Of a stretch of DNA of 36,588 nucleotides, positions 1 through 36,588 are shown one piece after another. The position numbers were made by a program, and so were the translations under genes. The stretch is from a virus. The stretch's first letter is position 1. Each line of letters opens with the position of its first letter. The notes under the pieces were generated by a model, which saw only the letters and a list, made by a program, of their open reading frames with translations, had not been told where the DNA came from and made no database searches. The stretch spans positions 1 to 36,588 of IMG/VR virus record IMGVR_UViG_3300027969_000014; one strand, written 5' to 3'.

Positions 1-228
1 GCCCCTAAAAATCCTAATACTGCACTAATAGGCATATCAATCCCCTTTAATCAAAATCTCATCCACTTTAGACAAGTCTTTCTCGTCTGTGGCATGAATA
101 CAAAACCAAACACAATCAGTAATCGCTTTAACGCCGTGAATCAATCCAGCCTTAATCTCTAAACAAGCAGGGGCAGTCACAATATCAATCTCGTCACCAC
201 GCAAAACAGCAACCTTACCTTCAGCCAA
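1..228. repeat. Left copy of 228-bp terminal direct repeat
   Basis: These 228 bases are identical to 36361-36588, so the window is a circularly closing contig with a unit of about 36,360 bp. The repeat lies inside genes: it holds the first codons of the internal virion protein at 35214-36395 and the last part of the cupin gene. That position fits a circular or circularly permuted genome better than a dedicated packaging repeat, but a real short terminal repeat cannot be excluded from sequence alone. Confidence 0.95.
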
Positions 229-5786: not shown

Positions 5787-6770
5787 TTAGCTAGGAACAA
5801 CCAAAGCAAACATAGCAGAAGACTTAGCTGCACCAACTGTAGCGGCACTACGCAAAGCAGCAACGCCATACAAAGTGTCAGATGTAAACAGAGTAGCCAA
5901 ATACTCTTGTTTGTACTGAACTTGTGAGCGAACACCAACTTGCTCAACCAAGACCATAGCATCTTTGTGACCCATCAAGCAAACACGGGCAATTGCAGAA
6001 CCACTTGTTGGGTAAGCGGCTGTTGCAGATGCTGAGTCAGCATTGCTAGAGGTGAACACGGGGATGCCATACAGGTTACCGATTTCACCATTGCGGATAG
6101 CATCGCCATTACCAACAAATGCTTGTTCGGTGTAGCGAGCCAGACCCATCAAAGTGTTACGGCTTGAGGGAGGAATTAGGAAGAAACGATTGTCCATAGG
6201 AGTATCGTTGTCATCCAAACGCTGAATAGTGCGGCGAATAGACGCATCAGTCAGAGCAGAAGCATTACCAGTGTTGGTGTTTGCTGTGTAGTCAAAGGTT
6301 GTTGTACCATCACCGCCGATAAAAGCAGAGCCGTACTGAGCGCCAGTAGTGCCGCCGTTAGCAACACGACCCAACTGCACCAAGTCTGTATCAACTTGAC
6401 GAGCCAAAGCGTAACCAGCGTCAGCAGTGTAGAACTGGCGCATAGAGTTCAATGCTTGGGCTTCAACAATATCTTCAATCAAACGGCTATATTCATAGTG
6501 TTTGTTGATAGAAATGTCAACAATTGACTCTGTTGCTGCAATCAAAGTGACTGCTGTCTCTAAGACCTTTGCAGAAGCATTACCTCGTGTAGGAGTAGGA
6601 ATGTGAACAGTGTCACCTTTCTTACCCTTGAAGTTCATCTTCATAACCAAGTTAGCTAAAACAAGGTTCTTCTTATAAGACGCAACGATTTCGTCTGACC
6701 AAATTTCAGGGATGAAATTGGCTGCTGTGGTAGTAGTTACCGAGTTTGTGGGGGAAAATGATGTTGCCAT
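5787..6770 (-). CDS. Major capsid protein
   Basis: This 327-residue protein lies directly after the scaffold gene. It opens with a flexible Ser/Thr-rich arm (about residues 1-20), then FIPEIWSDEIVASYKKN, and contains the HK97-type progression of a KGDTVHIP strand, a long helix region (RLIEDIVEAQA) and a DLVQLGRVA segment. The terminal region has VGVRSQVQYKQEYLATLF. The length matches podovirus coat proteins. An ATG with GGAG upstream supports the start. Assignment rests on synteny (portal, scaffold, capsid order) and these segments. Confidence 0.85.
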   Translation of the reverse strand: MATSFSPTNSVTTTTAANFIPEIWSDEIVASYKKNLVLANLVMKMNFKGKKGDTVHIPTPTRGNASAKVLETAVTLIAATESIVDISINKHYEYSRLIEDIVEAQALNSMRQFYTADAGYALARQVDTDLVQLGRVANGGTTGAQYGSAFIGGDGTTTFDYTANTNTGNASALTDASIRRTIQRLDDNDTPMDNRFFLIPPSSRNTLMGLARYTEQAFVGNGDAIRNGEIGNLYGIPVFTSSNADSASATAAYPTSGSAIARVCLMGHKDAMVLVEQVGVRSQVQYKQEYLATLFTSDTLYGVAALRSAATVGAAKSSAMFALVVPS

Positions 6771-6800
6771 TTGTGTACTCCAATAAAATCAAAAGTTAAG

Positions 6801-7562
6801 TTATTTGACCCGTCCCTCTTGATACGCTTGCATGATCTCGTCACTCAAGGCATCGTAGCGGTTTGGATCAGTCATCTTCAGCCGAATAAGGTCTGCCCTG
6901 CGATAGACCCTCTTTCCAGATTCACCACTGCCACCTACATCAACTGTCGCTGCTTTAAGACTAGACTTGCGCTGAGTTTCCCCTGCTTCATTAGTCTGTT
7001 TAGCCTTAACACCACGCAACTGTTTGTAGGTACTCAGCAATTCATTAGCACTATCATAATCAAACTCACCATCAGCTTTTGCATACAAACCAATCCTAAT
7101 AGGTGAAGATTTCACCCAATTTACAAAGTCTGCATCTTGAGCAATCTGACCGAAATCAGGATGCTCTGCCGCCAGCTTTTGCTGAATTTGCATCTTTTTG
7201 AACTCTTGACCAGCTTGTCTAGCCGCAAGTACATCAGGATGGTTATCAACAGTCTTACGAACCGCTGCCTGTGGATTCTCAAAGAAATCTACTTCAGGTT
7301 CTTCCTCTTTAATATGTTGGGGTTTACCCGCAAGGTTTTGCTTGATGAGTTCATCTGCTAATTTGCGTACTTCGCCAACTTCTTGTGCTTGCTTTCCAAT
7401 CAGCTTTTCTGCCTCTTGGTGCATTTTGATGATGTCTGACAACTCTTTACCCCGATACTTGTCGGGAATGTCATTACTCATCGGCTCAACAGTTGATTCA
7501 AGTTTCTGCTTTTCAACAGTCTCTAACTCGCCTAACATCTCGTCTGGGTTATCTACTAACAT
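6801..7562 (-). CDS. Capsid scaffolding protein
   Basis: This 253-residue, highly charged and mostly helical protein lies directly upstream of the capsid gene. Acidic N-terminus, then KYRGKELSDIIKMHQEAEKL, a long coiled-coil-prone middle (about 45-80), an EEEPEVDFFENPQ segment and a C-terminal part (GKRVYRRADLIRLKMTDP) with basic residues, as expected for the coat-binding end of scaffolds. Scaffolds assemble the procapsid and then leave. Ribosome site GGAAAAGG precedes the ATG. Confidence 0.8.
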   Translation of the reverse strand: MLVDNPDEMLGELETVEKQKLESTVEPMSNDIPDKYRGKELSDIIKMHQEAEKLIGKQAQEVGEVRKLADELIKQNLAGKPQHIKEEEPEVDFFENPQAAVRKTVDNHPDVLAARQAGQEFKKMQIQQKLAAEHPDFGQIAQDADFVNWVKSSPIRIGLYAKADGEFDYDSANELLSTYKQLRGVKAKQTNEAGETQRKSSLKAATVDVGGSGESGKRVYRRADLIRLKMTDPNRYDALSDEIMQAYQEGRVK

Positions 7563-8075: not shown

Positions 8076-8510
8076 CTAAAATGCAAACTTCTTCTTTTTT
8101 GGTGCAATCATCTTGGCAATTTCTTCTGCGTAATATTGCATACCAAACTTGCCATCAACCCGTACATCGTGATTTTCTGGGGGTACAAATAACTTGTTTG
8201 TGTCCTCAAACGGGCTTTCTTTGATTCGGTCTACCCAAACAATGAAGTGAGCGCCAAAGGCTTCCCGTGTTTCAGGGGTAGGACAAACAAAATCAGCAAT
8301 CACATGAGCCCCATATCTAGATGCTATATCGCACAAAACACCCATACGCCTAGCCTGTTCAATGCGGTCTTTTACAGAGAATCCAAGGTCTTTGTTGATT
8401 TCCTTGCGTATTTCATCAGCATTAAAGTGAACGCAGGAAAGTTCCCTTGCCAAAGCTGTAGCCAAGGTGGTCTTACCCGAACTAGGCAAACCCATGATTA
8501 GTATTTTCAT
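8076..8510 (-). CDS. Adenylylsulfate (APS) kinase, CysC-like
   Basis: The family phosphorylates APS with ATP to give PAPS, the universal sulfate donor. The sequence shows a P-loop at residues 7-15 (GLPSSGKTT), the family-specific NKDLGFS at 39-45 with DRIEQARRMG just after, and a FVCPTPETRE strand at 74-83 that corresponds to the substrate-side loop of CysC. At 144 residues it is shorter than cellular CysC (about 200) but contains the core. It overlaps the sulfotransferase gene by four bases (ATGA), so the PAPS maker and a PAPS user are coupled. It could be a different nucleotide kinase, but the NKDLGFS match makes APS kinase the best reading. Confidence 0.85.
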   Translation of the reverse strand: MKILIMGLPSSGKTTLATALARELSCVHFNADEIRKEINKDLGFSVKDRIEQARRMGVLCDIASRYGAHVIADFVCPTPETREAFGAHFIVWVDRIKESPFEDTNKLFVPPENHDVRVDGKFGMQYYAEEIAKMIAPKKKKFAF

Positions 8511-9328
8511 CCCTTGACCTTATACAGTTGTTTTACGGCAAAGTCTGGTGCTGGTGTACGCCAAAAGTCTTTTCCTGCGTACTTCTCCCACACCGATTTA
8601 GGCAGGATAGATGGGCGCTCTTGCCAAGTTACTTCTTTCCTAACTGTGTGTAGGCTTTTCATGTTTAGTGCTTTGTCAAACACTTCGTTCTCGTACTCCA
8701 CGTTCTTAAAGTCGTGGTCAAAGTACTGCTTGCCGATGAACTGGTACAACTCGCGCATTACGCTCTCAGGCTGTTTGCAAAGCATCTCGTACTCCACCAA
8801 CATAATCATGTCGGGATTTAACAACAATCCTTCTTCCAAGAAATAGTATGGCTTAACAACTTGGCCTTCTTTCTTTACATCCATCAAGGCATCGCACCTT
8901 GTGGTGACTGTCTGCCGTGACTCATCATCTGTCAGGGTTGCGCCGTACAAAGAATTCTTGGCTGATATACGCTCAAAGCTATCCAATATCCAAGGCAAGT
9001 CCCGCACACAACAAATGATCTTAGTCTGTGGATATAGGTCTTTAAGGAGTGATGTCTTAGCAGTCCAGCCCCTGCTGGTGTCAAACACTGTGTTTGGTGT
9101 GACTGCTTTGTAGTAAGCCTCAAATACGTCTTTTAGTATTTGTTTGCGCCTGTCTTCATCTATCAAATGATTGCTCTCACTGCCCGTAATGACGTTGATG
9201 GTTGATGTAACAAATCCTTGCACGGGCGATGAGATGTCTGCATAAAACTCAGGGTTCTGGCGCAAGATAGCCGACAACAATGTCGAGCCTGATCGTGGCA
9301 AACCAGAGATGAAGAAAAACTCTTTCAT
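8507..9328 (-). CDS. PAPS-dependent sulfotransferase
   Basis: This 273-residue protein starts at the ATG at 9328, chosen because it forms an ATGA overlap with the upstream gene. The PAPS 5'-phosphosulfate loop is plain: SGLPRSGSTLLSAIL at residues 8-22. A TKIICCVRDLPW strand with its Arg matches the 3'-phosphate site region, and the C-terminal WQERPSILPKSVWEKY region is typical of sulfotransferase family 3-like enzymes. It transfers sulfate to a hydroxyl or amine, often on glycans. Its place between a fibre-associated gene and the capsid block suggests virion, tail-fibre or host-surface sulfation, which is inference. Confidence 0.85.
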   Translation of the reverse strand: MKEFFFISGLPRSGSTLLSAILRQNPEFYADISSPVQGFVTSTINVITGSESNHLIDEDRRKQILKDVFEAYYKAVTPNTVFDTSRGWTAKTSLLKDLYPQTKIICCVRDLPWILDSFERISAKNSLYGATLTDDESRQTVTTRCDALMDVKKEGQVVKPYYFLEEGLLLNPDMIMLVEYEMLCKQPESVMRELYQFIGKQYFDHDFKNVEYENEVFDKALNMKSLHTVRKEVTWQERPSILPKSVWEKYAGKDFWRTPAPDFAVKQLYKVKG

Positions 9329-9759
9329 GCTGCTGGAGTCTGGGCAACCCAATTAACTGTAGCCTCATCCCACTGATAACGCACATTGCCGCCGTTAATA
9401 ACGGCATCTGCTGGCCTTGCTACAGGTGCAGCCCATGTCATTGTGTCTGAGTAGCCAATCCATGATGGATAAGGTCTACGGGCTTCATGTTCTGCAGTTT
9501 TAGCCGTGTTGTACTCTGCCTCGGTCAAGACCTGTAACACACCAGCGATGGTAGTGTCGGCATCGTCATCGCAAGTGCCGTAATATTTTGGGGCTCTTAG
9601 GTATGTGCCATCGGATGCCACTTCAACAGGCCATGTTGAGCTATCGTGCCATAAATGCGTCCAACCCTTGACAGCAGGCATGGATGGGCCTGTGCGTTGT
9701 GGCTCGGCTGTGCAAACTATTTTGGTTACTGCGTCTACTTCGGTGATGCAAATGTACAT
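9325..9759 (-). CDS. Tail fibre-associated / fibre-assembly-like protein
   Basis: This 144-residue protein contains Trp/Pro-rich short repeats near the C-terminus (YPSWIGYSDTMTWAAPVARP, then RYQWDEATVNWVA) of a kind common in small phage tail-fibre partners and assembly chaperones. The N-terminal half holds aromatic strands (GWTHLWHDSSTWP). It follows the lectin-like gene and precedes the sulfotransferase with an ATGA overlap. The GGAG ribosome site supports the start. Assignment is by motif style and position. Confidence 0.55.
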   Translation of the reverse strand: MYICITEVDAVTKIVCTAEPQRTGPSMPAVKGWTHLWHDSSTWPVEVASDGTYLRAPKYYGTCDDDADTTIAGVLQVLTEAEYNTAKTAEHEARRPYPSWIGYSDTMTWAAPVARPADAVINGGNVRYQWDEATVNWVAQTPAA

Positions 9760-19065: not shown

Positions 19066-19893
19066 TTAATCTCCACAGAAACAAGCAATTGTCTCTTCGT
19101 TAGGGTCGAACATATCGGTTTGTTCCGATGAGAATTTAATCATAGAAGCATAAGACGGGCGATCGGAGCGGAATACAGCACCGCTTGACTTACTTGCCAC
19201 CGATAGTGCTACTTCCTCCATTTTTGCCCACCAAATGCCTCGTTCTGGCTTTTCAGCAATTAGAGATAACACTTGAGAGCCACCTTTAAGAAAACAAAGA
19301 TCACAATTTCCGTGATAAGTAACGCCATTGATGTTCGGTAATTCAAGATCAAAAGATTGTTTGCGCCAAAACTCGCCAACAGTTTCTTTTGTAACTCCAG
19401 CAGTTACAAGAGGAATTCTAGATTTATCAGCAATTTTGGCAGCTCGGCGCTGCTCATCAGCCCTCATGCCAATCCAATCCATTGTTTCATTATGGTCATT
19501 CCACCCAAGAGATTTAAGATATTTATGGATTGTTCTAATTTTTAATTCTGATGTGCAAAATCTAGTTACAGGGTTTGGTAAATATTGGCGTTTGCGGATA
19601 AGTGCTTCAAATGGCTCTCCGTTTCGACTAGCAGTTTCAAATGTAACTCTTTCAAATGCTGGGTCGGCATTTCTATATTCCAACCAATGAATTTCAACAT
19701 TCCAATTGTCAGAACAGGCTTTAACAAATCTTAAAGTCGCCTCATCTTCCTTGCCTGTGTTGGCAAAACAGACAATAGCCTCACTTGGCAAGCTCATTTG
19801 GTGAGCTTCTAGCACCTTGTAAAGCATATAAGCAGATGTTCTGCCACCTGAAAAACTGATGCAAGTTGCTTCTTTTATCTCAAACGGGTTCAT
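19066..19893 (-). CDS. PP-loop PAPS-reductase-family protein
   Basis: This 275-residue protein has an ATP-pyrophosphatase loop at 13-20 (SFSGGRTS), FANTGKEDE at 43-51, RFCTSELKIRTIHKYL with Cys113, and a GMRADEQRR loop near 142. A GNCDLC pair (C197, C200) and a terminal CFCGD follow. Family members activate or reduce sulfur nucleotides or catalyse adenylation chemistry, and DndC-type relatives act in DNA phosphorothioation. Which reaction applies here is unknown. The extra cysteines could hold zinc or an Fe-S cluster. It lies between a resolvase and DNA methylase genes, so a DNA-related role is possible. Confidence 0.75.
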   Translation of the reverse strand: MNPFEIKEATCISFSGGRTSAYMLYKVLEAHQMSLPSEAIVCFANTGKEDEATLRFVKACSDNWNVEIHWLEYRNADPAFERVTFETASRNGEPFEALIRKRQYLPNPVTRFCTSELKIRTIHKYLKSLGWNDHNETMDWIGMRADEQRRAAKIADKSRIPLVTAGVTKETVGEFWRKQSFDLELPNINGVTYHGNCDLCFLKGGSQVLSLIAEKPERGIWWAKMEEVALSVASKSSGAVFRSDRPSYASMIKFSSEQTDMFDPNEETIACFCGD

Positions 19894-20071
19894 TTTTAAG
19901 CCTTTTTATGATGTTCATTCGCCTACGCAGATCATTGGTCGCTGCCAACCCTCGTTTTTTCTCGATATCTTGCAATGTCTGCCACCACCATGAAGAAGCG
20001 CCCTGCGTCCCAGTCTCTTGAAACTTCCGTTTGTACCTCGTTATCCATTCCTTCGCTTCCATATTCTTCAT
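19880..20071 (-). CDS. 63-residue basic protein, overlapping the next ORF
   Basis: The frame is open to a TTG at 20143 but a better start is the ATG at 20071, preceded by GGAG. The product, MKNMEAKEWITRYKRKFQET followed by GASSWWWQTLQDIEKKRGL and LRRRMNIIKRLKN, resembles small phage proteins with a WW-x-DIE-KKRG core that I recall near replication genes. It overlaps 19932-20171 by about 140 bp in another frame. The stop overlaps the PP-loop gene start by 14 bp. Confidence 0.55.
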   Translation of the reverse strand: MKNMEAKEWITRYKRKFQETGTQGASSWWWQTLQDIEKKRGLAATNDLRRRMNIIKRLKNEPV

Positions 20072-20171
20072 AGTCTCCAGTAACTGTGAGCGCTCGGGTT
20101 GTGTCAGCGTAGCTAAGTTTGCGTGTTTCTTTGTGTTTGTCAAGGATTTGGTTTGCCTCTTCTCTAGTCAT
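19932..20171 (-). CDS. 79-residue acidic hypothetical protein
   Basis: The ATG at 20171 has GGAG upstream and overlaps the end of the methyltransferase. The product begins MTREEANQILDKHKETRKLS and ends VVADIARYREKTRVG. The N-terminal helix looks protein-like, while the C-terminal half shares DNA with the 63-residue gene in another frame. Either both are real or this one is a start-region remnant. Confidence 0.45.
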   Translation of the reverse strand: MTREEANQILDKHKETRKLSYADTTRALTVTGDYEEYGSEGMDNEVQTEVSRDWDAGRFFMVVADIARYREKTRVGSDQ

Positions 20172-20913
20172 TTAGGATTCTCCATGCGGTTGCCGCACAA
20201 AGTGGGACTTGTCCATTTCCAATGGCTTTAAGTCTGTCCACCCCAGAGGCCAACCCATTAGCCACTCGACCCACATTGGGTTCAGTTTGCCACCAATGCC
20301 TTGTTCCGAATCCCGTACTGCTTGATTTATCGAATATTGAGCTTGGTGTCCTGATTTCCTCTTTGGTGTCCAATTTGGCTGTGTTCCCCTCATTCCACAA
20401 TTCGCATCGGGCGTTGGCCAAGTTTTTTCCAACGATCCAAATCCTGTCCCTCTGATGGTTTGCTCCAATGTCAGCTGCTCCCAACACTCCCCATTTCGCA
20501 TCAAACCCCATTGAGGCCAAGTCTGCAAGAACTCTTCCAAGTCCCCTAGAAGTGAGCATTGGTGAGTTTTCCACAAAGACGAACTTAGGTCGAACTTCAC
20601 AAATGATCCGCGCCATTTCTCCCCACATTCCGCTTCGTTCTCCATCAATTCCTGCGCCTTTTCCAGCTGCGCTGATGTCTTGGCATGGAAACCCTCCAGA
20701 TACAACGTCAACAATTCCTCGCCAAGGTTTTCCGTCAAAGGTTTGAACGTCATCCCAAATCGGGAAATTTTCAAGAAGTCCATCATTTTGTCTAGCGGCA
20801 AGTACGCTTGCTGGATAGGCTTCCCATTCAACGGCGCAGACTGTTCGCCATCCGAGAAGTTTTCCCCCAAGTATTCCTCCACCAGCGCCTGCGAAAAGAG
20901 CCAACTCATTCAT
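20164..20913 (-). CDS. DNA (cytosine-5) methyltransferase
   Basis: This 249-residue C5 methyltransferase has all key motifs: I (LFAGAGGG, 6-13), IV with the catalytic Cys77 (SGGFPCQDIS), VI (ENSP, 115-118), VIII (HQRDRIWIVG, 153-162) and X (IGNGQVP, 231-237). The target-recognition part (about 165-215) is very short. It transfers methyl from SAM to cytosine C5, probably to protect phage DNA or control genes. The start at 20913 is in an ATGA overlap with the initiator-like gene and has AAAGG upstream. Nearly its whole length is also open in a second frame (20172-20909). Confidence 0.9.
   Translation of the reverse strand: MNELALFAGAGGGILGGKLLGWRTVCAVEWEAYPASVLAARQNDGLLENFPIWDDVQTFDGKPWRGIVDVVSGGFPCQDISAAGKGAGIDGERSGMWGEMARIICEVRPKFVFVENSPMLTSRGLGRVLADLASMGFDAKWGVLGAADIGANHQRDRIWIVGKNLANARCELWNEGNTAKLDTKEEIRTPSSIFDKSSSTGFGTRHWWQTEPNVGRVANGLASGVDRLKAIGNGQVPLCAATAWRILND
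20172..20909 (-). CDS. 245-residue protein coextensive with the methyltransferase in another frame
   Basis: Four bases inside the methylase start a second ATG opens a frame of 245 codons without a stop, ending eight bases before the methylase stop. The product has MSWLFSQALVEEYL, SRFGMTFKPLTEN, EGFHAKTSAQLEK, WPQWGLMRNGECW, WPTPDANCG and GGKLNPMWVEWLMGWPLGWT. I recall these blocks, in this order, as a protein type common in phage and metagenome annotations, including copies with their own WPTP-type inserts. Much of it mirrors conserved methylase codons read out of frame, so conservation alone does not prove translation. Both ATGs could share one ribosome site. Confidence 0.6.
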   Translation of the reverse strand: MSWLFSQALVEEYLGENFSDGEQSAPLNGKPIQQAYLPLDKMMDFLKISRFGMTFKPLTENLGEELLTLYLEGFHAKTSAQLEKAQELMENEAECGEKWRGSFVKFDLSSSLWKTHQCSLLGDLEEFLQTWPQWGLMRNGECWEQLTLEQTIRGTGFGSLEKTWPTPDANCGMRGTQPNWTPKRKSGHQAQYSINQAVRDSEQGIGGKLNPMWVEWLMGWPLGWTDLKPLEMDKSHFVRQPHGES

Positions 20914-22777: not shown

Positions 22778-22850
22778 CCCTGAGTTTGTATATACAGACT
22801 CAACCAAAACAAACATTTTTAAAACATTTCAAAAGTTTAAACAGGAGTGA
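22608..22850 (+). CDS. Overlapping ORF, likely real only at its C-terminus
   Basis: An 80-codon frame whose N-terminal half overlaps the Cys-rich gene. The C-terminal end (RVTDPEFVYTDSTKTN, then IFKTFQKFK) resembles a short phage protein type I recall with VTDPxFxY and a KTxxKF end. The true start may be a GTG near 22750 or 22771 rather than the ATG at 22608. It ends two bases before the ERF gene start. Confidence 0.4.
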   Translation: MNIFASFARNLKLRLFRFAPAQAIGSDFPTLTLIPNSPLPNKSLTHRKVYPTKRVTDPEFVYTDSTKTNIFKTFQKFKQE

Positions 22851-22852
22851 AT

Positions 22853-23434
22853 ATGAAAGAACAAAGCAAAGAAAATCTAGAGGTATATGTAAAGTTGGCT
22901 GTGGCACGATCAAAGCTACGATCAAAGGTTCTTAAGAAGTCAGGACAAAATAAGTTTGCTGGATACAACTACTTTGAACTTGGCGACTTCCTACACCCAA
23001 TCATGGAGATATTTGATGAAGTTGGCTTGATCGGCATAGTGTCGTTTACTAAAGAACAAGCTGAACTTCGCATTGTAGATACCGAAATTGGAGGTGAGAT
23101 TGTGATTACTTCACCTTTTGGGTCTGCGGCTCTCAAAGGTTGCCATGAAGTGCAAAACATTGGGGCAGTTGAAACCTACCAAAGACGCTATCTTTGGGTG
23201 ACAGCAATGGAGATTGTTGAGCATGATGCCCTTGATTCAACAACAGGGTCAGGCAACATTGAAACAGTAGATGTAGGCTTGATGATTGACCACTTGGCGG
23301 CTATTGAAGCTGCATCAACTTTAGAGGAACTCAAGAATGTATACGGCACTGCTTACGCTGCTTGCGATGGTGATAAGGGCTGGCAAAAGAAAGTGATTGA
23401 TGCCAAAGAAAAGCGTAAAGGAGCATTGAAATGA
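22853..23434 (+). CDS. ERF-family single-strand annealing protein
   Basis: This 193-residue protein starts at ATG 22853 with AGGAG upstream. The core, KSGQNKFAGYNYFELGDFLH then PIMEIFDEVGL, SPFGSAALKGCHEVQNIG and AVETYQRRYLWVTAMEI, is the ERF pattern of phage recombinases that anneal complementary single strands. A helical acidic C-terminus follows. It overlaps the YqaJ exonuclease by four bases, the usual exonuclease/annealase pairing. Confidence 0.85.
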   Translation: MKEQSKENLEVYVKLAVARSKLRSKVLKKSGQNKFAGYNYFELGDFLHPIMEIFDEVGLIGIVSFTKEQAELRIVDTEIGGEIVITSPFGSAALKGCHEVQNIGAVETYQRRYLWVTAMEIVEHDALDSTTGSGNIETVDVGLMIDHLAAIEAASTLEELKNVYGTAYAACDGDKGWQKKVIDAKEKRKGALK

Positions 23435-24051
23435 GTGAAGTAGAACAAGGCTCTCCCGAATGGTTTGCACAGCGTTGTGGCAAAGCCACTGCCTCTCGTA
23501 TCTCTGACATTGTTGCCAAAACAAAGACAGGCTACAGCACCAGCAGGGCTAACTACATGGCTCAACTGGTAGTCGAGCGTATGACAAACCAAGTGGCAGA
23601 GTCATACACCAATGCGGCTATGGAGTGGGGAATCGAGCAGGAAGTTTTTGCTCGTGCCGCATACGAGGCTAAAACAGGCAATATGGTAGATCAGGTAGGT
23701 GCTATTGACCATCCACGCATTACCCTGTCTGCTGCCTCTCCTGATGGCTTGGTGGGCGATGATGGGTGCTTAGAGATCAAGTGTCCCAACACTGCTACTC
23801 ACATTGACACAATCCTTGGCGATGAGCCAGCAAAGAAGTATTACGACCAAATGCAATGGCAGATGGCGTGTGCGAACAGAAGTTGGTGCGACTTTGTGAG
23901 TTTCGACCCACGAATGCCCGAACACCTACAACTGTTCATCAAAAGAATCGAGCGCAATGATATGTATATTGCAGAACTCGAACAAGAGGTTATCCAGTTC
24001 CTTTCAGAAGTGGATGACAAAGTTAAAAAACTCAATGAAATAAAGGTTTAA
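23431..24051 (+). CDS. YqaJ/lambda-type recombination exonuclease
   Basis: This 206-residue protein opens with GSPEWFAQRCGKATASRI, the YqaJ signature. E70 in MEWGIEQE, D106 in SAASPDGLVG and E116/K118 in CLEIKCP give the PD-(D/E)xK-like catalytic set; YYDQMQWQMACA follows. It chews 5' ends so the ERF protein can anneal. It is coupled to ERF by an ATGA overlap. Confidence 0.9.
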   Translation: MSEVEQGSPEWFAQRCGKATASRISDIVAKTKTGYSTSRANYMAQLVVERMTNQVAESYTNAAMEWGIEQEVFARAAYEAKTGNMVDQVGAIDHPRITLSAASPDGLVGDDGCLEIKCPNTATHIDTILGDEPAKKYYDQMQWQMACANRSWCDFVSFDPRMPEHLQLFIKRIERNDMYIAELEQEVIQFLSEVDDKVKKLNEIKV

Positions 24052-24053
24052 AC

Positions 24054-24305
24054 ATGAAAGATGCTTTTTTTAGATTACCGCAGATTATTGGAGATGCTAA
24101 AGCCAATCCACCAATTCCAGCCCTTATTCCTGTTTCCAAAACAACTTGGTATGCGGGTATTAACAGCGGAATTTTTCCAAAAGGCATAAAGTTATCTCCA
24201 AGAGTTTGCGTTTGGAGAGAATCTGACATTCAAAATGTAATTAAAAATTTTGAACAAAATAACACAACAAGTAATGTCGTAAATTTCAAAAAAATGAAGG
24301 TGTAA
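24054..24305 (+). CDS. AlpA-like helix-turn-helix protein
   Basis: This 83-residue protein has VSKTTWYAGINSGIFPKGIK followed by LSPRVCVWRESDIQNVI, the AlpA/excisionase-type MerR-like helix-turn-helix with the WRESDI wing. These proteins regulate excision or transcription. No integrase is present, so a transcription role in the operon is more likely. It starts two bases after the exonuclease stop. Confidence 0.75.
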   Translation: MKDAFFRLPQIIGDAKANPPIPALIPVSKTTWYAGINSGIFPKGIKLSPRVCVWRESDIQNVIKNFEQNNTTSNVVNFKKMKV

Positions 24306-24307
24306 AT

Positions 24308-24550
24308 ATGGAACAGCGTGATAACTCAGGTGTATTGTTTAAGAACGACAAGAAAGAATCAGGCAACCAACCTGACTACAAGGGCAACATCACAGTTGAT
24401 GGTCAACCCTATTGGCTATCGGCTTGGATTAAAGATGGGAAAACAGGCAAATTTATGGGTCTTGCGGTAAGCCCTAAAGAAGAAGCCAACACTTCCTCAC
24501 CAAAGAAGAAGTCTTCCATTGAAGACATGGATGAAGACCTGCCTTTCTGA
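24308..24550 (+). CDS. Small SSB-like protein with acidic tail
   Basis: This 80-residue protein has GVLFKNDKKESGNQPDYKGN, YWLSAWIKDGKTGKFMGLAV and a final DMDEDLPF, an acidic tail with a terminal Phe like that of bacterial SSB. Similar small OB-like phage proteins (DUF736-type, from memory) occur beside recombinase genes. It probably covers single-stranded DNA in recombination or binds host partners through its tail. Encoded two bases after the AlpA-like gene. Confidence 0.65.
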   Translation: MEQRDNSGVLFKNDKKESGNQPDYKGNITVDGQPYWLSAWIKDGKTGKFMGLAVSPKEEANTSSPKKKSSIEDMDEDLPF

Positions 24551-24592: not shown

Positions 24593-24605
24593 GATAGGAG
24601 TGAAT

Positions 24606-25343
24606 ATGATCCATTACCATGGACTTCCAATAACACCAACGCCTGTTGCTAACTATGCAGTTCAAGCTGGTCATGCGTTTGTTTCGTATGCCCATCCTGA
24701 GCAGATAGCAACCGCTATTGATGTAGCTCAGTCTTTTGCTATTGATAATGGGGCATTTAGCGCATGGAAATCAGGTGAGCCAGTAACAGATTGGCAACCC
24801 TTTTATGAATGGGCATTAAATCTCAAAAAAGTACCCTCCTGCGACTTTGCTGTTTTGCCTGATGTTATTGATGGCACAGAAGAAGATAACGATGCCTTGT
24901 TGCGTGATAACCCATTGCCGTTGTGGTTTGGCGCACCTGTTTGGCATATGCACGAATCCCTTGAGAGACTTGAACAATTAGCCAACACCTATGTTCGGGT
25001 TTGCATTGGTAGTTCAGGTGAATACGCAACCATAGGAACTTTTCAATGGTGGTCAAAGATGGGTCAAGCCATGCGGGTAATCTGTGATGATTTAGGCAGA
25101 CCATCTTGCAAATTGCATGGATTGAGGATGTTAGACCCTGCAATATTTACAAAACTGCCATTTTGCTCTGCTGATTCCACAAACATTGCTAGAAATGTTG
25201 GTATGGATGGTAAATGGAGAAGCGGAAATTATCCCCCACCAACAAAAGAGGCAAGAGCGCAAGTCATGAGAAGTAGGATTGAGGCACACAATGCCCCGCC
25301 AGTTTGGGGTTTTCATCAAGTTGAACAAGGAGTATTACTATGA
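24606..25343 (+). CDS. TGT/DpdA-like transglycosylase (7-deazaguanine base exchange)
   Basis: This 245-residue protein starts at ATG 24606 (AGGAG upstream). Key segments are HGLPITP, SFAIDNGAFSAWKSG (DNGAFS 47-52, comparable to the DSGGFQ active-site loop of queuine tRNA-ribosyltransferase), LPDVIDG (84-90) and PVWHMHES (111-118). They continue with GSSGEY (135-140), HGLRMLDP (171-178) and SADSTN (188-193). TGT-family enzymes swap guanine for a 7-deazaguanine; phage DpdA relatives do this in DNA. The zinc-binding Cys set of tRNA TGT is absent, as expected for a diverged phage type. The neighbouring transporter gene fits import of the precursor. Substrate and target (DNA or tRNA) are inferred. 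Confidence 0.7.
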   Translation: MIHYHGLPITPTPVANYAVQAGHAFVSYAHPEQIATAIDVAQSFAIDNGAFSAWKSGEPVTDWQPFYEWALNLKKVPSCDFAVLPDVIDGTEEDNDALLRDNPLPLWFGAPVWHMHESLERLEQLANTYVRVCIGSSGEYATIGTFQWWSKMGQAMRVICDDLGRPSCKLHGLRMLDPAIFTKLPFCSADSTNIARNVGMDGKWRSGNYPPPTKEARAQVMRSRIEAHNAPPVWGFHQVEQGVLL

Positions 25344-25816
25344 TTTATGCAGGAATTTACATTGCCGCATTGGTTGCCGCCAACCTTTTGGTCGCTTGGT
25401 TAGGGGTTTGGTTTAGTCTAGTCAATGCCTTTGTCTTGATTGGATTGGACTTATCTCTGCGAGACAAACTGCATGATTTATGGCAAGGCGACAAATTGCC
25501 CATAAAAATGGGCGGTTTGATTGCAACGGCAAGCATTGTTTCTTATGCCATAAATCCAGCCACAGGCATGATTGCATTTGCTTCCTTGGCGGCTTTCAGC
25601 TTATCAATGGTAGCTGATTCACTGGTCTACCAATACCTCAAGCATAAAGAATGGATGATTCGTGTTAATGGGTCAAATGTTGCTGGCTCTGCTGTTGATT
25701 CAGTAGTTTTCCCAACAATAGCTTTTGGTGGGTTGATGCCTGAAATTGTCGCATTGCAATTTGTAGCAAAAGTTGGTGGTGGTTTTGTTTGGAGTAAATT
25801 TTTAAATAGGAGTTGA
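25340..25816 (+). CDS. YhhQ/VUT-like queuosine-precursor transporter
   Basis: This 158-residue protein is hydrophobic, with about five to six membrane helices. LIGLDLSLRDKL (33-44) and NVAGSAVDSVVFPTIAFG (113-130), then PEIVALQFVAKVGGGFVW, are the VUT family hallmarks. The E. coli member YhhQ imports preQ0 and preQ1. At 158 residues it is shorter than cellular YhhQ (about 220), missing mainly the N-terminal helices. Coupled to the transglycosylase by an ATGA overlap. Confidence 0.8.
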   Translation: MIYAGIYIAALVAANLLVAWLGVWFSLVNAFVLIGLDLSLRDKLHDLWQGDKLPIKMGGLIATASIVSYAINPATGMIAFASLAAFSLSMVADSLVYQYLKHKEWMIRVNGSNVAGSAVDSVVFPTIAFGGLMPEIVALQFVAKVGGGFVWSKFLNRS

Positions 25817-35213: not shown

Positions 35214-36395
35214 TTAAGGGCCGTATGAGCCATCATATGAAAATGAAGATTGTGGTTGGTTATAGTATGTACCTTGCTGGGCTAAAAGCGTATTTTGATC
35301 TGGACTCATAAATGGACTACCTGTATATCCAGTTTGTACTGGTTGACCACCACCAAACAATCGTTCAAATCCAGTTGATAATTTTTTAGTATCTAATCCT
35401 CCAGCAATAACATCGCTAATGGGACTTTGTCCTGAGCCCATTTGTCGACTTAATGCCGCATTTGCACCACCCCTAAATAAGAATTCACCAACATTAGCAC
35501 CAGCAGTAGAGGACTTACCCCCTAACTCTGAGCCTAATCTTAATGGTTCTTGACCAAGCCCCTCAATTGCTTGACCAGCACCCAAATAACCTGTAAATGG
35601 GCTCAATGCGCCAACCTGACCAGCTTGATACTGACCTAACATCCCTGCACCAGTACCAAACAAACCAGCACCAAACGCAACATTACGCTGTCCTTCAGCC
35701 TGTGCCTGTGCAGCCAACTGAGCATCCTGTTGAGCAATAGCGTTGTAATAGGCTTCTAACTCAGGTGTAGTAGCACCCAATCCAGCCATACCGCTAGGGC
35801 GCATACCTGTAGCGCCTACAGACAGTCCACTACGACCTTGTTGGAACAACTGGTTCTGCAACTGTGCCATCTGACGCTCACGGCTAGGGGCAAGCAAATC
35901 CTGTTGCTGTTGAATGTATTTAGCCGCAACATCTTGAGGGCTCTGTGCAAGATACTGCTGACCCAAGCCAAACAATCCACCAGCCGCCTGAGACAAGGGC
36001 TGAAACTGTTGTTGAGCAAGTTCTGCTTGCGTTAAAGCACCGCCTGTAAGACCCATTAAACGATCTTGATAGGCTTTTAGTTCAGGGCTAAGTTCATAAC
36101 CAGCACCAGTTAAGTAGCCTTCAGATGCCGCCCGTATTTGATAATCCCTTTGTGCAGCCGCAAATTCTTCAGGCGTTGCATAGTCAGTTGCGACAGGTGG
36201 GTTAACACCTTTTATTCCATACTGAAAATTAGATTTACCAAATCGTGTGGTGATTCCAACAGGGCGAAACTTAGCCGCTTCAGCCGCTAACCTAGCTGAT
36301 TCAAGTTGAGCGTTGGCAGATGTATTTGCCGCTGACTCTGTAGCAGAAGCCTGTTCACTTGCCCCTAAAAATCCTAATACTGCACTAATAGGCAT
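35214..36395 (-). CDS. Ala/Gln-rich internal virion protein
   Basis: This 393-residue protein starts MPISAVLGFLGASEQASATE and has a long Ala/Gln-rich helical region with QQQDLLAPSRERQMAQLQNQ and a Gly-rich segment (GAGLFGTGAGMLGQYQ), as in podovirus internal head proteins that leave the capsid with DNA. The tail is Gly/Tyr/Pro-rich. It starts one base from the cupin stop when the genome is closed; its first codons lie inside the 228-bp repeat. Confidence 0.65.
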   Translation of the reverse strand: MPISAVLGFLGASEQASATESAANTSANAQLESARLAAEAAKFRPVGITTRFGKSNFQYGIKGVNPPVATDYATPEEFAAAQRDYQIRAASEGYLTGAGYELSPELKAYQDRLMGLTGGALTQAELAQQQFQPLSQAAGGLFGLGQQYLAQSPQDVAAKYIQQQQDLLAPSRERQMAQLQNQLFQQGRSGLSVGATGMRPSGMAGLGATTPELEAYYNAIAQQDAQLAAQAQAEGQRNVAFGAGLFGTGAGMLGQYQAGQVGALSPFTGYLGAGQAIEGLGQEPLRLGSELGGKSSTAGANVGEFLFRGGANAALSRQMGSGQSPISDVIAGGLDTKKLSTGFERLFGGGQPVQTGYTGSPFMSPDQNTLLAQQGTYYNQPQSSFSYDGSYGP

Positions 36396-36588
36396 ATCAA
36401 TCCCCTTTAATCAAAATCTCATCCACTTTAGACAAGTCTTTCTCGTCTGTGGCATGAATACAAAACCAAACACAATCAGTAATCGCTTTAACGCCGTGAA
36501 TCAATCCAGCCTTAATCTCTAAACAAGCAGGGGCAGTCACAATATCAATCTCGTCACCACGCAAAACAGCAACCTTACCTTCAGCCAA
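36361..36588. repeat. Right copy of the 228-bp terminal repeat
   Basis: Identical to 1-228. Closing the contig here restores the cupin gene and makes the leftward late block continuous across the junction. Confidence 0.95.
36397..36588 (-). CDS. Cupin gene, partial copy at contig end
   Basis: This is the 3' part of the gene at 37-333, cut by the end of the window (the 5' codons are missing). It is not a second gene. Confidence 0.9.
   Translation of the reverse strand: MAEGKVAVLRGDEIDIVTAPACLEIKAGLIHGVKAITDCVWFCIHATDEKDLSKVDEILIKGD

Follow-up and report, generated by a model that had tools for sequence, protein, structure and literature searches.

The DNA analyzed here (the window) is the whole of a 36,588-base virus contig from a small freshwater phage. 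An exact direct repeat of 228 bp occupies both of its ends (window 1-228 and 36361-36588), so the record is very probably a complete genome. On the plus strand, a gene for a DpdA-type transglycosylase is followed by a gene for a putative precursor transporter, and the two are joined by a stop/start overlap (Table 1). The initial annotation, which was made from the sequence without database searches, had described two genes overlapping by four bases; the overlap was confirmed and the start that it had chosen for the first gene proved right. The program-called reading frame of the transglycosylase begins earlier, at TTG 24591, but the AGGAG ribosome-binding site favors the ATG listed in Table 1, and AAGGAG likewise lies upstream of the ATG of the transporter. 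Upstream of the pair and in the same direction are genes for four recombination- and replication-related proteins which, to judge from their spacing, probably belong to the same early operon. Both genes of the pair are under purifying selection, with dN/dS of 0.04-0.11 where this could be estimated.

Table 1. Features of the locus and partner genes at related loci. Positions refer to the window unless a related locus (L number) is given.
Feature	Position	Strand	Description and basis
DpdA-type (TGT superfamily) transglycosylase	24606..25343	+	245 aa, ATG; phrog_887, BLAST, AlphaFold model
Compact VUT/YhhQ-type precursor transporter, putative	25340..25816	+	158 aa, ATG; Vut_1, phrog_4899, model
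ATGA stop/start overlap joining both genes	25340..25343	+	Four bases; sequence
Shine-Dalgarno-like AGGAG before ATG 24606	24596..24600	+	Sequence
Erf-like annealing protein, RecE/YqaJ-like exonuclease, excisionase-like protein, ssDNA-binding protein	22847..24550	+	PHROGs matches
QueD-like protein beside DpdA-type gene	L036 6735-7100; L062 6699-7106; L189 3097-3498; others		
phrog_37496 protein overlapping DpdA-type gene	L004 6735-6974; L057 6699-6983; L072 4307-4549; L181 3253-3498; ~30 others		80 aa

Two further regions of the window, both on the minus strand, were noted in passing. At 19066-20913, a PAPS-reductase-like protein (PADLOC SspD E 3.6e-16, phrog_424) adjoins a C5-cytosine methyltransferase, and this region is possibly a second DNA modification. 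At 8076-9352, among the structural genes, a P-loop kinase-like protein (phrog_10255) has as its neighbor a protein with the sulfotransferase-like motif LPRSGST (phrog_27463).

When searched against PHROGs, the transglycosylase matched phrog_887 (E 1.5e-69), a family that is named 'queuine tRNA-ribosyltransferase' there and that also contains the DpdA proteins of CAjan, MED16, 7-11, and Dp-1. BLAST aligned it with DpdA of MED16 (40% identity, E 5e-52), 7-11 (34%, E 3e-34), and CAjan (28%, E 1.7e-10). The profile alignment with CAjan DpdA by hhalign (probability 97.5) paired IDNGAFSAW, KLHGL, and SADST of the window protein with LDSGAFSAH, KLHAF, and SCDSS of CAjan, and placed D47, H171, and D190 in register with D63, H187, and D206, respectively. 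The motifs DNGAFS and SADSTN, to which the initial annotation had drawn attention together with the missing zinc cysteines of Tgt, begin at residues 47 and 188; the zinc motif CxCxxC, represented in E. coli Tgt by CDCYTC at 302, was not found in the protein. Four residues, D47, D86, H171, and D190, are invariant across 50 relatives. D47 would, by its motif, be the counterpart of D89, the aspartate of DSGGF in E. coli Tgt, and D190 is likely to be the nucleophile, to judge from its motif and from the corresponding residue of the CAjan enzyme; together they are the likely catalytic aspartates. H171, which aligns to the histidine within LHAF of CAjan, we infer to be equivalent to the published His196 of 9g, a histidine that is absent from DpdA2. 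The protein has 245 residues compared with 375 in E. coli Tgt, and it matched no Pfam family, TGT (PF01702) included. Its homology to characterized DpdAs places it in the phage DpdA family, and insertion of a 7-deazaguanine into DNA is its predicted activity.

The AlphaFold model of the transglycosylase was of high confidence (pLDDT 89.7, pTM 0.88). Foldseek by itself placed TIM barrels such as tryptophan synthase alpha above TGT; re-ranking with VIA-align reversed this order. The first row was then Cap10 (9ntn_A), with a Z-score of 15.9 and 226 residues superimposing at 3.6 Å; rows 2-50 were all TGTs of the same superfamily (Z 13.9-15.7, 210-229 residues), among them archaeosine TGT (arcTGT, 1j2b) at 15.7 and the bacterial and human enzymes at 14-15 (bacterial TGT, 14.8). 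The modeled fold is a TGT-type TIM barrel, settled at the level of the superfamily. This assignment rests on predicted models because no PDB chain was matched by a sequence profile of either family, enzyme or transporter. Since Cap10 is tied with arcTGT, the fold does not discriminate among DNA, tRNA, and protein as the target.

The transporter matched Pfam Vut_1 (E 1e-14) with 55.6 bits against a gathering score of 27.2, and it belongs to phrog_4899 (E 5.7e-38), as does gp41 of CAjan, annotated as a putative preQ0 transporter. Both of the VUT signatures that had been read from it, NVAGSAVDS and PEIVALQF, are present, and N15, R41, A81-S82, D120, and F124 are kept in the alignment with E. coli YhhQ. 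Its scores lie below the NCBIfam equivalog cut-offs (33.7 vs 50.95 bits for TIGR00697; 26.3 vs 252 for PRK11212), and it is therefore filed here as a member of the Vut_1 family and not as a YhhQ equivalog; it probably works like YhhQ. Six transmembrane helices are predicted in its model (pLDDT 92.4). The top nine rows by VIA-align were ECF S-components or CbiM, with Z-scores of 8.4-11.9, a range in which helical bundles may match by chance, although no unrelated fold scored as high; the top row by Foldseek was also an S-component, with a weak E of 0.79. The transporter as modeled is compact, with an ECF S-component-like fold. We considered whether it is a truncated YhhQ and rejected this, as the model holds six complete helices. 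Profile search and structure prediction, the two computational checks that the initial annotation had proposed, thus bear out its TGT/DpdA-like and VUT/YhhQ-like assignments.

Pfam searches of the whole record matched no FolE, PTPS/QueD, radical-SAM/QueE, or QueC, in agreement with what had been read from the sequence. The genome of CAjan served as the positive control for these searches, and all four of its biosynthesis genes were matched, with a radical-SAM score that fell short of the curated cut-off.

The pair, which the initial annotation had described as a salvage-only modification system of a 36-kb genome, is not peculiar to that genome. In IMG/VR, relatives of the transporter, mostly close ones, adjoin a relative of the transglycosylase at 52 of 53 loci, the sole exception being a contig that ends inside the transporter gene. 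Isolate phages lend independent support: the pair is adjacent in all eight that were checked, which represent at least four lineages and have E. coli, Enterobacter, Acinetobacter, and Pectobacterium as hosts. Both gene orders occur among them, with the enzyme first in Acinetobacter phage AB3P2 and the transporter first in PEAT2, Flyfo Tbat1_6, Opt-719, Phc, RCIP0319, Lg3, and the unannotated ECO111 5-P. The six annotated enzyme partners that were tested belong to phrog_887; that of Lg3 was identified by alignment and that of ECO111 by tblastn. A match to QueC, FolE, PTPS, or radical SAM was obtained in none of the eight by the same Pfam searches. The same four-base overlap is found in most related loci, and this recurrent ATGA coupling, together with the purifying selection on the transporter, argues that the transporter contributes when it is present.

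Three other observations were made among the relatives. One phage contig (L008) carries two divergent enzyme-transporter pairs approximately 3 kb apart, at 1652-2814 on the minus strand and 5986-7214 on the plus strand. In Acidovorax delafieldii, a DpdA-type gene is broken into two ORFs (L221 3995-4750), perhaps as a decayed prophage copy. A 1.7-kb record labeled Staphylococcus phage (OR850331.1) gave a match equal to those of Salmonella phages (53%), and its label may be wrong.

Relatives of the window that lack the VUT gene often have, in the same slot beside the enzyme, a PTPS/QueD-like protein (Pfam E 4e-23) or a small protein of phrog_37496, and at some loci phrog_37496 and VUT stand in series. 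Genes in this slot lie downstream or upstream of the enzyme, mostly with the same four-base overlap, and the same partners are found on bacterial contigs, including those of Acidovorax, Variovorax, Achromobacter, and Pseudomonas. By parsimony, the slot states VUT, QueD-like, and phrog_37496 require 18 changes over a tree of 64 enzymes. Roughly half of the rows in this tree have no such partner at all, from which it follows that import is not generally required. That the slot is shared with a QueD-like gene ties the enzyme to 7-deazaguanine chemistry and, along with the recurrence across phage lineages, lends weight to the functional coupling proposed in the initial annotation. In each of the three QueD-like carriers checked, Pfam searches found QueD alone, with no other biosynthesis gene. 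The QueD-like slot proteins retain the zinc ligands and D70-H71, and in 25 of the 27 a serine stands at the position of Cys27, the catalytic residue in E. coli QueD. This replacement weakens the reading of these proteins as precursor suppliers; for the same reason they may differ from ordinary QueD, and their activity is uncertain. Members of phrog_37496, found in phages and on bacterial contigs on either side of the enzyme, have the pattern CPxN...FHE...HHGV. Inspection by eye suggested a mini QueF from the CP...FHE portion, an identification that is unproven: there was no match to QueF in the PDB, and the profile gave a probability of 3% against E. coli QueF plus the QueF-like protein of Dp-1, and 20% against that of Dp-1 alone.

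With an enzyme gene and an importer gene but no base-making genes, the phage probably armors its DNA with a scavenged base. Salvage-only 7-deazaguanine modification of phage DNA by the pair is, in our judgment, the best explanation and a reasonably probable one. By this mechanism, the pair would be transcribed with the recombination and replication genes, and the VUT protein would be placed in the host membrane, where it would import a 7-deazaguanine base, either preQ0 or preQ1. The DpdA-type enzyme would then swap guanines of the phage DNA for the imported base by TGT chemistry, with an aspartate nucleophile, a covalent intermediate, and base exchange, and the DNA so modified would be shielded from host restriction enzymes.

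Published work on related phages bears on this proposal. The dpdA gene of CAjan is essential for dPreQ0 in the phage DNA and for protection, and the same study listed 76 phages with DpdA only, left the source of their base open with host supply or uptake as suggestions, and found no correlation of phage YhhQ homologs with any group (Hutinet 2019, PMC6884629). The nucleoside dADG was detected in the DNA of 7-11, which is without biosynthesis genes (0.02% of G; PMC6884629), and in that of MED16 with dpdA alone (0.13% of G; PMC8306585), low levels that were not linked to the gene by deletion (PMC8306585, PMC6884629). Orion, a DpdA-only phage of a host without the pathway, had no modification (PMC6884629).

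The enzyme could instead be a DpdA that uses host-made preQ0, with modification independent of import and the transporter a mere aid, for example when preQ0 is scarce in the host or in a given phase. The enzyme does occur without an adjoining transporter in lambdoid and Vibrio relatives, among others, and MED16 is modified with no transporter gene reported (PMC8306585), but the recurrent ATGA coupling and the selection on the transporter speak against a merely auxiliary role, and we consider this account unlikely. Also doubtful, and to be taken as speculation, is the idea that the partner slot works as an exchangeable module for specificity or supply, filled by the VUT importer, a QueD-like T-fold protein lacking the catalytic cysteine, or the phrog_37496 protein. 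The module would set which 7-deazapurine arrives or hand the base to the enzyme, and the resulting modular modification system would need no biosynthesis genes and might serve a target other than DNA. A third account has the enzyme modify tRNA and so raise the queuosine of host tRNA in the course of infection, while the transporter would also supply host Tgt; the TGT superfamily fold and the PHROGs family name are in keeping with it, but the loss of the zinc site, the short length, and the failure to match Pfam TGT argue otherwise, as do the characterized phage relatives, which target DNA (PMC6884629), and we find it very improbable. It is just as hard to credit that the enzyme puts or handles 7-deazaguanine on protein, or disturbs such a system, like Cap10 of type IV CBASS, a TGT-like enzyme that works on a protein together with a Cap9/CD-NTase partner and that binds the N-terminus of a protein to which 7-amido-7-deazaguanine is linked (PMC11996544): Cap10 is the top structural match, but by a score tied with that of arcTGT, no PADLOC model was matched by the transglycosylase, the genome has no gene of the QueC/Cap9 family, and the closest characterized sequences are DpdAs.

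Salvage-only modification by the pair would bear on the question, raised by Hutinet 2019 (PMC6884629), of where DpdA phages without a preQ0 pathway obtain their base. With a compact VUT gene beside DpdA and no biosynthesis genes in every isolate checked, the scavenging route becomes directly testable with que and yhhQ mutants of E. coli and with E. coli phages already in culture, Lg3 among them; the sensitivity of such phages to restriction could change when preQ0 or preQ1 is supplied from outside. DpdA-only phages, phage YhhQ homologs, and the salvage hypothesis itself are already published (2018-2021; PMC6266253, PMC6884629, PMC8306585). We found no published description of a two-gene, biosynthesis-free cassette in a search outside which lay a 2024 review (PMC10966956) and Cui 2023 (PMC10516641), and the tight, recurrent cassette and its swapping partner slot appear to be undescribed.

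Among known systems, the DpdA-only phages 7-11 (Salmonella) and MED16 (Pantoea), group 3 of Hutinet 2019, share with the window the PHROG of the enzyme, 34-40% identity, the motifs, and the lack of preQ0 biosynthesis genes; they have no adjacent VUT gene, whereas in the window the genes for enzyme and transporter overlap. Escherichia phage CAjan (DpdA gp35, putative preQ0 transporter gp41) has both proteins in the same PHROGs as the window pair but also carries genes for FolE, QueD, QueE, and QueC, and the genes for its transporter and DpdA are not neighbors. In Streptococcus phage Dp-1, as in the window, the gene for a 7-deazaguanine transporter (QueT) overlaps that for DpdA; QueT, however, is an ECF S-component from a different family, and Dp-1 has genes for the complete pathway and for a QueF-like protein. 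The transporter of Pantoea phage Vid5, reported as the first preQ0/preQ1 transporter in a phage and the basis of a salvage proposal in 2018 (PMC6266253), is of the VUT family like that of the window, but lies within a cluster that includes three of the four genes for preQ0 biosynthesis; in EC151, a transporter occurs together with the full pathway (PMC8310023). Some bacterial proteins combine TGT and QPTR in a single fusion (PMC11130926). E. coli YhhQ (QPTR, COG1738) has 221 residues against the 158 of the compact window transporter, and the two align over nearly their full length with common N, R, D, and F positions.
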